From Fervidobacterium changbaicum (GTDB taxonomy: Bacteria > Thermotogota > Thermotogae > Thermotogales > Fervidobacteriaceae): a stretch of 64,000 bases of DNA. The DNA is taken from assembly GCF_004117075.1 (NCBI RefSeq), contig NZ_CP026721.1:558001-622000 (forward strand), given 5' to 3'. Positions 53,643 to 60,880 of this stretch are shown here, piece by piece. The notes below the pieces were generated by a model that worked only from the letters and a program-made list of their open reading frames with translations, was not told the origin of the DNA and ran no database searches. Positions within the stretch are counted from its first letter, which is position 1. Each line of letters starts with the position of its first letter. The position numbers were made by a program, and so were the translations under genes.

Positions 53643-56366
53643 ATGATTTACCGTTATTCGTCAAGAAGAACAAGGCTCGACTCGCACTTTTTAAACGAAA
53701 AGTTGAAAAACGCTGTCAGCTACGATCGAATAGCTGGTTATTTCAGTTCTTCCATCATCGAGGTTGCAGGGGAGGCAATTGAAAATATCGAAGGTGTCTG
53801 TAGGGTGGTGTGCAATTCTGAGCTTCAGAAGGACGACTTTGTAACAATAAGCGCAGCTGTTAACGGACTGCGCAGGGAATGGTGTGCGGCAAAACCAGAG
53901 GAAAAATACAACAACATTCCTGAAAGGCTGAAAAAGCTTTACGAACTTATAAGAAGTGGCAAACTGCAGATAAAGGTCGTCCCAAACGATGTTTTTGGAC
54001 TAATCCATGGTAAAGCGGGTGTGATAACTTTTAAAGACGGTCGGAAAACAGCGTTTATCGGTAGTGTGAATGAAACTCTCACAGGATGGAAGTTGAATTA
54101 TGAGATCCTCTGGGAAGATGATTCGCCAGAAGCTGTAGACTGGGTCCAGGAGGAATTCGACCATTTTTGGAACAGTCCATACGCTGTTGCACTTCCGGAA
54201 TTCGTGGTGGAGGATATCAAAAGAATCTCCGAAAGAAAAGTGATTTACTCCGTAGACGAATGGAAACAATCCCCCGAGCCTGCGTCCACGGTAGTTGAAT
54301 CACCGATTTATAGAGAAGAATTGGGATTGTGGGAACATCAAAAGTATTTCATAAGTCTTGCTTTTGAAAGTCATAAAAAGAACGGGGCAAGGTATGTGCT
54401 TGCAGATACAGTTGGGCTTGGAAAAACTATCCAGCTTGCGTTGGCTGCTCAGCTGATGGCTCTCTACGGTGATAAGCCAATCCTTGTAATTGCACCAAAG
54501 ACTTTAATATGGCAGTGGCAGGATGAATTATACAACCTTTTGGATATGCCTTCAGCCGTTTGGGATGGTAAAGGTTGGGTTGATGAGAACGGTATAAAGT
54601 ACCCTGCTAATGGCTATACAGCCATAAAGAAATGTCCAAGGCGTATTGGTATAGTTCCGCAAAGTCTGATAACAGCGAAATCTGAACAGGTTCAGGAACT
54701 TTTGAATCTTGATTACGAATGTGTAATTGTTGACGAAGCACACCGGGCAAGGCGAAAGAACTTGGGACCGGGAAGAGAGAATGAAAAGCCCATCCCTAAT
54801 AATTTGATGAAGTTCTTGCTTGAGATTTCTAAGCGTACTAAGAGTATGCTTTTAGCAACCGCAACACCTGTGCAACTTTATCCAATTGAAGCCTGGGATT
54901 TACTATATATACTTGCTCAGGGTAGTGATGCTGTTTTAGGGAATGTTTACAGCATGTGGCAGAGGTATCCTCAAAGAGCGTTGGACTTAATCACTGGTAA
55001 AGAAGTAATTGACCGCGCTGATGTTTCGGAGTATTGGGAATGGATCAGAAACCCGTTTCCTCCTGCATCTGAGGATGAAACAACGTTTGGGTTTGTAAGG
55101 AAACAGCTAAGAATGGCGGACAATGAGTTCGTCATAAAACCGGATGCACTTGATAGATTGGATGAGCAAGACCGCTTGCGAATCGAAAAGCGAATTCGCA
55201 GGATTATCGATAACGATTTTTTGATGAATCACAATCCCTTTATCAGGCATATCGTAAGAAGGACGAGGAGTTATCTTGAAAACAATGTAAATCCCGAGAC
55301 AGGAGAACCGTATCTGAAAAACATAGAAGTTGTTTTGATGGGCGAAAGAGACGACGAAGCCATTATCCTACCTCCGTATCTCCAAGAAGCCTATAATTAC
55401 GCAGAAAAATTCTGCGAATTGCTAAAAGAACGTACGAAAATCGTTGGCTTTTTCAAAACTCTGCTTTTAAGAAGAATGGGAAGTACGATGATAGCAGGAA
55501 AGCTCACTGCTGAGAGAATATTGAGTAATTGGCACTATTTATTGGTAGAAGAGGACTATGAAGGTGAAGAGAACGAAGACGAACTGCAAAGTCCATCAGA
55601 AGAACTGAGCCTAACAAATGAAGAAAGAGAATGCCTCGAAAATTTAATTGAGACGCTCAATCTGAACCAAGAAAGAGACCCCAAATACAACCTTGCTTTA
55701 AAGTTACTGCTGGAAGATAAATGGATAGAGCGTGGATGCATTATCTTTTCTCAGTACTACGATTCTGCGTACTGGATAGCTGAGAGTCTATCCGAGGACA
55801 TCCAAGGCATGAAAATAGGACTTTACGCAGGTGGTGAAAAGTCTGGAGTATTTGTTAACGGCGTTTTTGAGAGGAAAGATAAGGAAGATTTAAAACAAAT
55901 GGTTAGAAGACATGAACTGAAAATTTTGGTTAGTACGGATGCCGCGAGCGAGGGATTGAATCTTCAAACATTAGGTACACTTATTAACCTTGACTTGCCC
56001 TGGAATCCAACAAGGCTCGAGCAGCGAAAGGGAAGAATCCAGCGCATAGGACAGGTTTACGATAAGGTGTACATTTACAATATGAGGTACAAAGGGTCGG
56101 TTGAAGATAGAGTCCATCAGTTGCTTAGTCAGAGGTTTGAGAATATCTACAACATGTTCGGACAAATCCCAGACGTTTTGGAAGATGTCTGGGTTCACGT
56201 AGCGCTGAATGAGATTGAGGAAGCGAAAAAGAAAATTGATGCTCTTCCAACAAAACACCCGTTTGAATTGCGTTACCACGATCACATCGGTAGAATTAGT
56301 TGGGAAAATTGCGCTGTTGTGCTCGATAACAAGGAAAGAAAGAAGCACTTGTTATCCGGATGGTAG
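53643..56366 (+). CDS. PLD-like domain fused to SNF2-type helicase
   Basis: 907 residues. The N-terminal ~190 residues resemble a phospholipase-D/HKD fold with His122, Lys124 and the GSVNET segment (140-145); the HKD aspartate is not evident, so nuclease activity is uncertain. Then a Snf2 ATPase: Walker A DTVGLGKT (255-262), DEAHRAR, LATATPV, and the helicase C half with STDAASEGLNLQ...DLPWNPTRLEQRKGRIQRIGQ. It would translocate on DNA. It follows the methyltransferase by 46 nt and is the best candidate effector of the block. Confidence 0.9.
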   Translation: MIYRYSSRRTRLDSHFLNEKLKNAVSYDRIAGYFSSSIIEVAGEAIENIEGVCRVVCNSELQKDDFVTISAAVNGLRREWCAAKPEEKYNNIPERLKKLYELIRSGKLQIKVVPNDVFGLIHGKAGVITFKDGRKTAFIGSVNETLTGWKLNYEILWEDDSPEAVDWVQEEFDHFWNSPYAVALPEFVVEDIKRISERKVIYSVDEWKQSPEPASTVVESPIYREELGLWEHQKYFISLAFESHKKNGARYVLADTVGLGKTIQLALAAQLMALYGDKPILVIAPKTLIWQWQDELYNLLDMPSAVWDGKGWVDENGIKYPANGYTAIKKCPRRIGIVPQSLITAKSEQVQELLNLDYECVIVDEAHRARRKNLGPGRENEKPIPNNLMKFLLEISKRTKSMLLATATPVQLYPIEAWDLLYILAQGSDAVLGNVYSMWQRYPQRALDLITGKEVIDRADVSEYWEWIRNPFPPASEDETTFGFVRKQLRMADNEFVIKPDALDRLDEQDRLRIEKRIRRIIDNDFLMNHNPFIRHIVRRTRSYLENNVNPETGEPYLKNIEVVLMGERDDEAIILPPYLQEAYNYAEKFCELLKERTKIVGFFKTLLLRRMGSTMIAGKLTAERILSNWHYLLVEEDYEGEENEDELQSPSEELSLTNEERECLENLIETLNLNQERDPKYNLALKLLLEDKWIERGCIIFSQYYDSAYWIAESLSEDIQGMKIGLYAGGEKSGVFVNGVFERKDKEDLKQMVRRHELKILVSTDAASEGLNLQTLGTLINLDLPWNPTRLEQRKGRIQRIGQVYDKVYIYNMRYKGSVEDRVHQLLSQRFENIYNMFGQIPDVLEDVWVHVALNEIEEAKKKIDALPTKHPFELRYHDHIGRISWENCAVVLDNKERKKHLLSGW

Positions 56367-56400
56367 TCGAGTGCGCGTACAAAGGAGCGAAAAATACTCA

Positions 56401-56406
56401 TATAAT
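56401..56406 (+). promoter_or_regulatory. Possible -10 for the zinc-finger/PH-like gene
   Basis: TATAAT 30 bp before the start codon; TACAAA (56378-56383) is a poor -35 at 17-bp spacing. It could give this gene its own expression apart from the helicase operon. Confidence 0.4.
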
Positions 56407-56436
56407 AAGAGTCACATTTTTCCGGAGGCGAGGTCT

Positions 56437-57276
56437 ATGGGAGATTGCATTTACTGTGGCAGACCTGCGGGGCTTTTAAGAAAGTTTCATCCAGAGTGTA
56501 AAGAGAGGTACGAAAATACTTGGAACACAATGATCTATAAAGCTAAGAGCTCAGCACTTGGCTTAAGTCAGATGGATAATCTGGAGAACGAACTTCGCAA
56601 TCTGGCAAAGCAAGGCTACGTTCCAGAACATAAAATAAGAGAGGCTATCGTTTCAGGCTGGGAAGAAGCTGTGCAACATTTTCTGGAAGATGGGCAGCTG
56701 GACAAGCAGGAAGAAGAGAAACTACTCAAGTTCATACAGTATTTTGGATTGAGCCAGTATGAATTAGATAAGAACGGAATGTACACCCGTCTTGTTCAAG
56801 CTGCCGTACTGCGCGACGTGTTAGAAGGTAAGGTTCCACAGCGTCTCACGGTAGCTGGGACTTTGCCTTTTAACTTTCAAAAGAACGAAAGCTTGGTTTG
56901 GGTCTTTAAAAGTGTCAAGTATTATGAGCAAAGGACTCGAAGGGAATACGTCGGCGCAAGCCAAGGAGTGAGCATTCGAATTGCGAGGGGTGTCTACTAC
57001 CGTGTTGGAGGTTTTAAAGGCTATCCTATCGAAAAAGTCGAGAAGGTCCACGTAGATACTGGGATGCTCGCAATCACTACGAAACATATATACTTTCACG
57101 GTTCTGTAAAAAGCTTCAGGATACCTTATTCCAAAATTGTTTCGTTCACACCTTACTCGGATGGATTTGGAATTAATAAGGACGCTGCAAGTGCTAAGCC
57201 CCAAATCTTTGAAACAGGAGATGGATGGTTTGTGTACAATCTTGTGGTGAATCTCGCAAGAGGAGATTTCAATTGA
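56437..57276 (+). CDS. Zinc-finger protein with C-terminal PH-like domain, hypothetical
   Basis: 279 residues. The start (CIYCGRPAGLLRKFHPEC) is a short zinc-finger-like Cys2-His-Cys motif. A helical region follows (about 40-130). The last ~130 residues have the beta-rich pattern of a bacterial PH/GRAM-like domain (GMLAITTKHIYFHGSVKSFRIPYSKIVSFTPYSDGFGI). I do not know a named family. GGAGGCGAGG precedes the ATG; a longer in-frame reading frame upstream only overlaps the helicase end. It closes the accessory block and may be a sensor or adaptor. Confidence 0.78.
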   Translation: MGDCIYCGRPAGLLRKFHPECKERYENTWNTMIYKAKSSALGLSQMDNLENELRNLAKQGYVPEHKIREAIVSGWEEAVQHFLEDGQLDKQEEEKLLKFIQYFGLSQYELDKNGMYTRLVQAAVLRDVLEGKVPQRLTVAGTLPFNFQKNESLVWVFKSVKYYEQRTRREYVGASQGVSIRIARGVYYRVGGFKGYPIEKVEKVHVDTGMLAITTKHIYFHGSVKSFRIPYSKIVSFTPYSDGFGINKDAASAKPQIFETGDGWFVYNLVVNLARGDFN

Positions 57277-57446: not shown

Positions 57447-58679
57447 ATGGCACAAAAGTTCTGTTCATTTTGTGGAAGAGCTGCGGATAAGGTAGAAAAG
57501 CTCATCGCAGGACCCGGAAATGTGTATATTTGTAGCGAGTGTGTGGAGTTGTTCCACGATATTCTTCAAAGCGACAAGAAGATAAAACCAACGAAGTTCG
57601 GAACAAGAGACAGAAAAGAGCTTCCAACACCATCGCAGATAAAAAGCGAGCTTGACAAGTACGTTATAGGGCAAGAACGCGTGAAAAGGATTCTTTCCGT
57701 GGCAGTCTATAACCACTACAAGCGAGTGTTCTTCGGAAAAGATACCTCTGATGTCGAAATTGAGAAATCAAATATCATACTCATTGGACCAACTGGAAGT
57801 GGGAAGACACTCATGGCAAGGATTCTTGCAAAGATCTTAGATGTACCTTTTGCAATAGCCGATGCCACACCACTGACAGAAGCCGGATACGTCGGTGAAG
57901 ACGTCGAAAACGTCGTTTTGAGGCTCCTTGAAGTGACAAACTTTGATGTCGAGCGTGCACAGTACGGTATCATATACATAGATGAAATCGACAAGATAGC
58001 AAGGAAATCTCCAAATCCGTCTATCACCAGGGATGTTAGTGGCGAAGGCGTTCAAAAAGGTTTACTCAAAATCGTGGAAGGAACTATAGCCAACGTTCCA
58101 CCACAAGGTGGTAGAAAGCATCCATACCAAGAATTCATCAAGGTTGACACCACAAATATATTATTCATCGTTGGCGGTGCATTCGATGGGTTGGATGAAA
58201 TAATCAAAAGAAGGATAGAAGGCAGTGCGATCGGATTCAACGCACCAGTGAAGAGCAAAGAACAGATGCGACTCGGTGAAATCTTGAAACACGTTACTCC
58301 CGACGACTTGGTCCAATACGGTCTCATGCCAGAGTTTGTAGGCAGGTTCCCCGTAATTGGTACACTCGATGATCTTAGTGTCGATGACTTGGTCAGGATT
58401 TTAAAAGAGCCCAAAAACGCAGTCTTAAAACAGTACAAGAAACTTTTTGAAATAGACGGTGTTGAACTCGAAGTTGAGGAAAGAGCGCTTTACGCAATAG
58501 CCAAGGAGGCTTTGAGGCGAGGAACAGGAGCAAGGGCTCTGAAGAGCGTCTTTGAAGAAGTGATGATTGATATCATGTTTGATATTCCCGATTTGAAAGC
58601 TGTTGAAAAGGTTGTCGTCACGGAAGAGTGTGTCACAAAGCGTGAGCGTCCGAAAATATACATGAAAGAAACAGCTTGA
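57447..58679 (+). CDS. clpX: ATP-dependent Clp protease ATP-binding subunit ClpX
   Basis: 410 residues, full length. N-terminal C4 zinc-binding domain (CSFCGR...[10 protein letters not shown]), Walker A GPTGSGKT, Walker [12 protein letters not shown], the pore loop GYVGEDVE, and the sensor GRFPVIG. It unfolds substrates for ClpP; clpP is not in the window. GTAAGGAGGTAAAGC precedes the ATG. Confidence 0.98.
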
Positions 58680-58720
58680 CGTAGTTGTAAAACTGCTTAC
58701 AGAAGACGAAGGTGTTGTAG

Positions 58721-59737
58721 ATGATAGTGCTTGGAATAGAGACAAGCTGTGATGAAACGTCTGTGGCTTTGGTTGAAGATAACAAGGTTTTAGCAAACCT
58801 TGTCTACTCCCAGATATCAACGCACAAAAAATTCGGTGGTGTGGTACCAGAAATAGCAGCGAGGGAGCATTTGAAAAAGCTCCCCGCTCTTTTTAATCAA
58901 TTACTTACAGAAACGCAAGTCGATATGATGCAAGTGGATGGAATCGCCGTTACAAAAGGTCCCGGACTTATAGGAGCTCTACTCGTTGGTGTGTCATTTG
59001 CGAAGGGATTAGCACTGAGGTATCGAAAAAAACTCGTTGGAGTAAACCACATAGTTGGCCATGTCTACGCAAACCACCTGGTCTACCCTGAACTAAAACC
59101 TCCGTACGTTGTACTTATGGTTTCAGGTGGTCATACTCTAATACTAAAAACTGAAGATGATTTCAGTGTAAAATTGCTTGGTAGAAGCGTCGATGATGCC
59201 GTAGGAGAGGCGTTTGATAAAATCGCAAGACTTTTGGGATTGGGCTATCCTGGAGGTCCAGAGATAGACAAGATAGCCAAGACAGGCAATCCGAAAGCTT
59301 TCAATTTTCCAAGACCAAAAATGCACGATAGCGACTACGATTTCAGTTTTTCAGGACTGAAAACATCTGTGCTGTACGAAATCAAAAGGCTTCAAGCGAG
59401 CAACGTTTCTGAGCTTCCTATAAGTGACCTTGCCGCGAGTGCACAGGAAGCTATGATAGATGTTCTGCTTTACAAAGTCACGAAAGCTGCAAAGGACAAC
59501 GATGTTCGCAAAATCGTACTGGCAGGTGGCGTTGCAGCAAACAGCAGGTTGAGAGAAAAATTGAACGAATATACCTCGGAATTTGAGTTCTACATTCCTC
59601 CGCTTGAATTCTGTTCTGACAATGCAGCGATGATAGCAAGAGCCGGGCTGGAGTTACTAAAAAATGGTGTGGACCACGGCTTGATGCTCGAACCTGTTCC
59701 GAACTTATTTGAGATGGATGAAATAGCGATAGGTTAA
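58721..59737 (+). CDS. tsaD: tRNA N6-threonylcarbamoyladenosine transferase TsaD
   Basis: 338 residues, ASKHA fold. GIETSCDETS at the start, the metal-binding NHIVGHVYANH, VSGGHT, DDAVGEAFDKIARLLGLGYPGGP, and AGGVAANSRLR. It installs t6A37 on ANN-decoding tRNAs with TsaB/TsaE. It follows clpX on the same strand. Confidence 0.97.
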   Translation: MIVLGIETSCDETSVALVEDNKVLANLVYSQISTHKKFGGVVPEIAAREHLKKLPALFNQLLTETQVDMMQVDGIAVTKGPGLIGALLVGVSFAKGLALRYRKKLVGVNHIVGHVYANHLVYPELKPPYVVLMVSGGHTLILKTEDDFSVKLLGRSVDDAVGEAFDKIARLLGLGYPGGPEIDKIAKTGNPKAFNFPRPKMHDSDYDFSFSGLKTSVLYEIKRLQASNVSELPISDLAASAQEAMIDVLLYKVTKAAKDNDVRKIVLAGGVAANSRLREKLNEYTSEFEFYIPPLEFCSDNAAMIARAGLELLKNGVDHGLMLEPVPNLFEMDEIAIG

Positions 59738-59764
59738 TAAACTAAAAGATGTGGTGAATGAGTC

Positions 59765-60880
59765 GTGAATTACATCGTCGATGTTGAAGCCGAAGTGCTG
59801 AAAACTGTAATCAAAAAAGCTGATAAGGTGTGCGGGACATTGGAACCATCCATGAGAAAACTGGTCTTCCTTTCGGAAGACGAAAGGCTGTATATCATCG
59901 CCTCGGACGGATGTTTGAACGGATACTTTCCCGTTTGTTCTTTTTATTCTAAGATATCGGTCCCTTTCGAAATCCCTCTTGATGTCGTAAGACATTTCGT
60001 TTCAGAGCTCACTGGAAAAATTAGCCTCCATTTCCAAGATGGTGTGCTCAGTTTGAAATCTCAAAACGAAACATTACGACTCAGGATCTCACCACTTCAA
60101 AAAGACAGGGAAGAGAAAATATACGTTCCAGTAAACGCACAAGGAACGGCATTCTCAAAAAGGAAACTTCTGGCTGAATTAGATTTCGCATCATCATTTC
60201 TTGAAGAAGGAAGCTACGTAGATCTTTATTTCATCCGAAACACATTGGAGATGATTTCACAGCACTATGGACTTGTCGCTTATTCTCAAGTGGAAGTTGA
60301 GAAGAACAGTGAGGACCCAGGTGCAAAAAACGAGCAGGATATAAACAATTTTTCCATTCGCATACCGTACGTGTCTGCAAGACATCTGATCAAGGTTTTG
60401 GAAATTGAAGAAACCAATCAAGTGCAGATTTCGTTTGACCCAATCACCAACAAGATTCTTATTTTCTCTGGTGATATATTTACACTATGCACGGATGTAC
60501 CTGATGAATCACCTGATTTGGTCAGAAACCTATGTAGCCGGTTCGAACCGAGAATCAGGATCCTTTCTTCATTACTTCAGAGATTGTTGAGAAGGTCGTT
60601 AATAGCAGGAAGGTTCTCAGATGTGGAGATTTATTCACGACACGGAGAGCTCGTTGTCGTTTCCCAACACGGTGCGATTGCCTATAAGGCTTCGATTCCT
60701 GTTCAGAATGAGATGCAAGTCGTTGAATTTTCTTTTCAAACCAAGGCTTACATGTTGCGGAGTGCAATAAACCGAATAGGTAGCCAGTACATCAATATTG
60801 GCACAGTGAGCGAATATGTTCTTTTGACACCACCATCACTCTCCAGATTCCTGATTGTTCGAAATCAGAGAATTCAGTAA
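59765..60880 (+). CDS. Divergent sliding-clamp-like (DnaN-like) protein
   Basis: 371 residues, the length of a DNA polymerase III beta subunit. Three successive stretches follow the clamp pattern: residues 1-120 (LKTVIKKADKVC...LYIIASDG...FEIPLDVVRHFVSEL...LRLRISPL), about 125-250 (KRKLLAELDFASSFLEE...LEMISQHYGLVAYSQVEV...IPYVSARHLIKVLEI), and the last ~115 (LLQRLLRRSLIAGR...VVEFSFQTKAYMLRSAINRI). Usual motifs are weak (no RLaxVATDG in domain II; it ends FLIVRNQRIQ), so it is probably a paralogue rather than the replicative clamp. Its 3' end overlaps flgJ on the other strand. Confidence 0.65.
   Translation: MNYIVDVEAEVLKTVIKKADKVCGTLEPSMRKLVFLSEDERLYIIASDGCLNGYFPVCSFYSKISVPFEIPLDVVRHFVSELTGKISLHFQDGVLSLKSQNETLRLRISPLQKDREEKIYVPVNAQGTAFSKRKLLAELDFASSFLEEGSYVDLYFIRNTLEMISQHYGLVAYSQVEVEKNSEDPGAKNEQDINNFSIRIPYVSARHLIKVLEIEETNQVQISFDPITNKILIFSGDIFTLCTDVPDESPDLVRNLCSRFEPRIRILSSLLQRLLRRSLIAGRFSDVEIYSRHGELVVVSQHGAIAYKASIPVQNEMQVVEFSFQTKAYMLRSAINRIGSQYINIGTVSEYVLLTPPSLSRFLIVRNQRIQ

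Follow-up and report, generated by a model that had tools for sequence, protein, structure and literature searches.

Thermotogota carry, in addition to the canonical sliding clamp DnaN, the ring that keeps the replicating polymerase on its DNA, a second and highly divergent clamp protein, which we call ClampB. Its homology to the clamps of the DnaN superfamily is confirmed, and its gene is inherited vertically along family lines across the phylum. Judged from alignments, the pocket in which clamps dock client peptides appears to have decayed to background in ClampB, and the surface predicted to face DNA is conserved and basic; in two families the gene sits directly behind polC. Our preferred reading, to which we give somewhat less than an even chance, is that ClampB is a ring-like, DNA-encircling, pocketless accessory of the PolC replicase.

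A divergent clamp gene in addition to the canonical dnaN

The window is a 64,000-nucleotide stretch of DNA from Fervidobacterium changbaicum, whose genome is a single contig of 2.27 Mb. The gene and the parts of its product are laid out as follows:

59753..59757, + strand: GGTGA, a likely ribosome binding site, read by eye, 7 nt before the GTG start
59765..60880, + strand: ClampB (clamp paralogue), three-domain beta-clamp fold; the frame begins with GTG and runs open for 371 aa to its stop codon
59765..60124, + strand: ClampB domain I, about residues 1-120, from the secondary structure of the model (boundary approximate)
60146..60538, + strand: ClampB domain II, about residues 128-258, with remnants of the client pocket, from the predicted model and alignment
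60554..60862, + strand: ClampB domain III, about residues 264-366, from the predicted model
60845..60877, + strand: C-terminal strand and tail FLIVRNQRIQ, replacing the canonical VMPMRL-type ending, from sequence and alignment

Taken alone, the window protein matches neither Pfam DNA_pol3_beta nor TIGR00663 and falls below every library threshold; at the curated cut-off it is not a member of the TIGR00663 equivalog (0 families). One PHROG and one Pfam match, at E 0.13-0.14, were treated as chance. Its relatives reveal the homology: a profile built on 35 orthologues of the same order, searched against the PDB, finds one sequence at E<=1, the beta clamp 8dt6 (E 3.7e-6), and at E<=0.1 Pfam DNA_pol3_beta is matched by 9 of the 35 orthologues (best 1.1e-5) and TIGR00663 by one. 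A direct BLASTP of ClampB against the DnaN of its own genome, a single comparison, gives a weak match (E 2e-5).

The predicted structure agrees. An AlphaFold model of the window ClampB, built from only eight sequences, reaches a pLDDT of 86.6 and a pTM of 0.86, and beta clamps make up 50 of 50 among the Foldseek matches listed. The best PDB match is Thermotoga maritima DnaN (TM0262, PDB 1VPK), which aligns (VIA-align) over 346 residues with a Z of 28.5 and an rmsd of 3.8 A at 16% identity. Like this protein and E. coli DnaN, ClampB has the three-domain fold over its full length, with the DNA-facing helices in register. The original prediction, made from the sequence alone, had described a divergent DnaN-like clamp with a three-domain pattern that lacks the usual motifs and the MPMR-type ending; the profile, Pfam, Foldseek and 1VPK comparisons bear out the first part and the alignment the second. 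The structure prediction that it had proposed supports the clamp fold for the single chain.

A canonical dnaN was found in a single copy in the same contig (C1:1155905-1156999), scoring 262 bits against the TIGR00663 cut-off of 138, and the PDB chain closest to its product is 1VPK. Because this separate gene lies in the same complete genome, clampB is a second clamp-like gene, as the original prediction had supposed. Within the order, 44 of 45 genomes have canonical DnaN, and across Thermotogota 100 of 103 do. That ClampB might instead be the organism's main clamp was rejected on these grounds, and we consider it next to impossible. Extra canonical-type DnaN copies also occur: one in G028 (L043, on C23; 287 bits, long branch) and a weaker 125-bit match within a 502-aa frame in G055 (G055:C55:30330-31463). 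These are possibly prophage, mobile or contaminant clamps.

The immediate surroundings say little about what ClampB does. Upstream on the same strand lie clpX and tsaD, the latter separated from the clampB start codon by 27 nt; the 3' end of clampB overlaps a convergent gene for a rod-binding (FlgJ-type) protein by 45 nt (60836-60880), and flgI is also a neighbour. The tsaD and flagellar genes highlighted in the original prediction are indeed there, but the arrangement is lineage-specific, being found beside clampB only in genera g1 and g2 of family f1 (11 loci), and does not explain function; a flagellar or tsaD role was rejected. Nor did a shared function emerge from the neighbours in other families (alaS/hslO-like, D-Ala ligase-like and GTPase-like genes, named by eye). 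The pair clpX/tsaD, which adjoins clampB in the window genus (57447-60880), appears again a few kb downstream of clampB in part of family f10 (L118, L122-L126), perhaps as a remnant of an ancestral neighbourhood.

Two further genes in this part of the window deserve mention. About 3.4 kb upstream of clampB, 53643-56366 (+ strand) encodes a 907-aa protein with PLD and SNF2-type helicase regions (Pfam), which matches the PADLOC model 'PLD_Helicase' over its full length at 812 bits and is a candidate defence gene. It is followed by a 355-aa ORF (56209-57276, + strand) for which Pfam and PADLOC searches gave no match; its true start is probably further in, since the beginning of this ORF runs over the helicase gene in a different reading frame.

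Pocket, interface and DNA-facing surface

The client pocket is regarded as among the best conserved hubs of bacterial replication. We examined it, the dimer interface and the inner helices in an alignment of 96 ClampB rows, canonical rows and the E. coli sequence; the residues considered are those of the E. coli clamp, transferred through this alignment at an identity of about 14%, with pocket segments that we take to be GHRL-, FPDYRRV- and MPMRL-like. The ClampB rows come from 96 of 98 matching genomes (G048 and G085 were left out, as was a partial second copy in G004). The canonical rows are 44 ORFs from 45 loci, L049 having been missed by a coordinate filter; the misframed row L161 is kept in the pocket and conserved-residue counts (44 rows) and dropped from the tree, conservation and charge analyses (43 rows).

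The pocket residues P242, R176, P363 and R365 are each present in 43 of the 44 canonical rows, one of which is misframed. Among the ClampB rows, P242 is found in 10 of 96 and P363 in 28 of 96, and R176 and R365 are outside the six commonest residues. The mean frequency of the commonest residue in the pocket falls from 0.85 in canonical clamps to 0.27 in ClampB, compared with 0.62 versus 0.47 for the DNA-facing helices and loops and 0.57 versus 0.31 for the remaining columns. The inner columns of ClampB are more conserved than the rest of the protein (0 of 5000 permutations as high); its pocket columns do not exceed the remaining columns in conservation (636 of 5000 permutations as low). Without a QLSLF-type docking site, ClampB could neither recruit the usual clients nor be opened by the loader through the pocket.

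The inner helices are also strongly basic. Summed over the six helices, the net charge of ClampB averages +9.5 (range +5 to +17) and is at least +5 in 96 of 96 rows. The same columns carry +7 in the E. coli sequence and a mean of -2.5 in the 43 canonical Thermotogota clamps, none of which (0/43) reaches +5; on these helices ClampB is thus more basic than the DnaN of this phylum. The idea that the protein is a scaffold that lost clamp function thus holds for the client pocket but not for the DNA-facing surface, which has been conserved better and is more basic.

A set of residues is nearly invariant in ClampB: G24 and E148 (96 and 90 of 96 rows), R337 (91), and those in the three features below. 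Positions apparently matching G24, D48, C50, E148, R206, K210 and C242 also show no variation in a set of 11 rows to which the most divergent members belong.

59906..59914, + strand: D48-G49-C50; of the 96 ClampB rows, 94 have D48 and 91 have C50; canonical clamps have D48 in 42 of 44 rows and usually E or Q at position 50
60380..60394, + strand: R206-H207-x-x-K210 within an inner helix predicted in domain II; both R206 and K210 in 96 of 96 rows, H207 in 91
60488..60490, + strand: C242; Cys in 92 of 96 ClampB rows, canonical clamps being gapped there in the alignment

This near-invariant G/D/C/E/R/H/K/C set is mostly missing from canonical clamps and, together with the basic net charge, the conserved basic surface, the lost pocket and the altered interface, would suit a protein that has taken over the clamp fold but binds DNA as a monomer or without forming a ring, such as a regulator or structural factor connected with the expression of PolC. 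We think this unlikely: the entire three-domain arc is confidently predicted, and conservation is concentrated on the very surface that would face DNA in a closed ring.

At the dimer interface, the canonical K/R103 is mostly N, S or G in ClampB, position 298 is a gap in 96 of 96 rows, and E304 is Y in 71 of 96; the hydrophobic positions L104 and L106 are retained. As aligned, the charged interface residues thus appear to be replaced on both faces. These observations bear on whether ClampB pairs with itself or with canonical DnaN in an asymmetric hetero-ring with one client pocket. The loader could still open such a ring, which would bind one client; the retained L104 and L106 would fit it, canonical DnaN co-occurs with ClampB in nearly all genomes, and heteromeric clamps are known in archaea and eukaryotes (PMC9690074, in extract). 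In the same extracted source, Sulfolobus heterotrimeric PCNA and the eukaryotic 9-1-1 complex are clamp-fold proteins that are specialised beside a general clamp or serve as distinct subunits; they are PCNA-type clamps, unlike ClampB, for which a heteromer is a hypothesis only. The replacement of interface charges on both sides speaks against pairing with DnaN, and because the two faces changed in concert, a private homodimer fits better. We regard the hetero-ring as improbable.

Distribution, inheritance and rate of evolution

With the window protein alone as query, relatives turn up in 38 of the order's 45 genomes. The ClampB profile matches 98 of 103 Thermotogota genomes, one of which (G048) is doubtful: its match covers 68 positions in an 85-aa frame at 18 bits, and a second profile failed to reproduce it. 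Profile searches found no ClampB in G010, G031, G032 and G047; G076, unmatched in the main profile search, contains a C-terminal ClampB fragment. Two loci have irregular genes. G004 has a partial tandem duplicate (L042:5553-7101), in which a copy of 339 aa precedes a C-terminal one of 194 aa, and in G085 (L158:4983-5932) clampB is split into two frames, either because the gene is decaying or through an error in sequencing.

In a tree of 96 full ClampB sequences, 43 canonical clamps and E. coli DnaN, ClampB forms one side of a branch and E. coli falls with the canonical clamps. Each family with several rows forms a single group within ClampB, except f3 (two changes); the deep order is unsure because of long branches. 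The original prediction had raised the possibility of a clamp belonging to a mobile element, an idea that finds no support in this family-wise inheritance and near-universal presence. It was rejected on searches of 50,697 phage and 72,556 plasmid records, which gave no match, and of viral contigs, where one scan found none. As to occurrence outside the phylum, a scan of genome contigs with the single window protein returned no match, and the matches of a second scan, whose patterns were built for f1, were confined to Fervidobacterium, Thermosipho and a single unclassified Thermotogota MAG. The best explanation is an early duplication or acquisition of a beta clamp in Thermotogota, which retained the second copy as a fast-evolving specialist.

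That clampB evolves quickly is seen in the comparison of G000 and G015, where ClampB is 79% identical and DnaN 95%, with a dN of 0.135 versus 0.028; ratios based on dN are rough in this pair, since synonymous sites are near saturation. Nonsynonymous change in clampB is far below the synonymous difference, and clampB appears to be subject to purifying selection even as it evolves faster than dnaN. This pace is unlike that of a core replisome part and counts against ClampB being a PolC accessory. Separately, between G015 and G013 (L005 versus L006) clampB differs at 10% of synonymous sites and dnaN at 44%; the low figure hints at recent recombination around clampB.

Linkage to polC and a possible role at the fork

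In 28 loci polC and clampB lie on the same strand with a gap of -11 to +11 nt, and two further f9 loci (G067 and G071) have the same arrangement by coordinates. The linkage holds for all 16 f9 loci in which the gene is complete and for 14 of 21 f10 loci, the seven exceptions all belonging to genus g32. Directly upstream of polC lies ruvC in 23 of the 28 loci (the other five show no ruvC frame in the sequence examined), giving the order ruvC-polC-clampB with clampB last. In a representative operon the two partners were identified as PolC (NF001688, 1732 bits) and RuvC (223 bits). Several f10 genomes also encode another, shorter PolC-like protein (about 965-1025 aa) that scores below the family cut-off (for example G093:C1:1984984-1987356); it may be akin to the additional, exonuclease-less PolC that the extract of PMC3919608 mentions for Thermotogae.

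The operon suggests that ClampB is an unstudied part of the Thermotogota replication machine. Together with the clamp fold, near-universal presence, a clade of its own and a conserved basic DNA-facing surface, it suggests a PolC accessory. Against this reading, the operon is found in 30 of 98 loci overall and in two families only (f9 and f10), and the clampB of the window is far from polC; because some 0.9 Mb separates the two genes in that genome, the link is invisible in the window itself. Comparing the presence of ClampB with that of polC is uninformative, since PolC is nearly universal (102 of 103 Thermotogota genomes). Three genomes that are each at least 92% complete (G010, G031 and G032) have PolC and no detectable ClampB, so either PolC does not strictly require ClampB, or ClampB has diverged or been missed there.

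The presence of ruvC in the operon of two families is the sole positive evidence for a clamp dedicated to repair, for which Bacillus DnaN-2 offers a precedent: a spare clamp with an unequal repair function (PMC3290774, in extract). Like clampB, its gene is a chromosomal second clamp gene beside the canonical one; the extracted review gives it about 40% sequence homology with DnaN-1, and ClampB is far more divergent and nearly phylum-wide. A pocketless ClampB could not dock the usual repair clients, and the lack of phage, plasmid or viral relatives and the vertical inheritance weigh against the mobile variant. We consider a repair-dedicated or mobile-element clamp very unlikely.

If ClampB is instead the PolC accessory that we prefer, it would form a ring, or a partial ring, around DNA at the replication fork, where it could add DNA affinity or processivity or mark the strand held by PolC. 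It would not be a tool belt. Canonical DnaN would remain bound to PolC by way of the PolC tail: QxxLF is present in the PolC tails of 28 of 28 operons, which by sequence should allow this docking. Thermotogae are described as pairing PolC with a strongly reduced DnaE3 that has no recognisable OB or C-terminal domains (PMC3919608, in extract).

In the open-access literature we found no published description of a second Thermotogota clamp, and PMC3919608, PMC3290774, PMC3814617 and PMC9690074 are silent on it in the extracts consulted. ClampB offers a testable lead on the source of processivity in the unusual Thermotogota replisome of PolC and reduced DnaE3, and the proteins concerned, being heat-stable, should purify easily. 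A phylum-wide pocketless clamp tied to polC would mean that a ring is useful independently of client docking. It is conceivable, though we would not expect it, that Thermotogota replicate with two clamps, a normal tool belt and a pocketless ring, private or mixed, co-produced with PolC and acting at the fork; if true, clamps would have subfunctionalised in bacteria in a way that resembles 9-1-1 or heterotrimeric PCNA.
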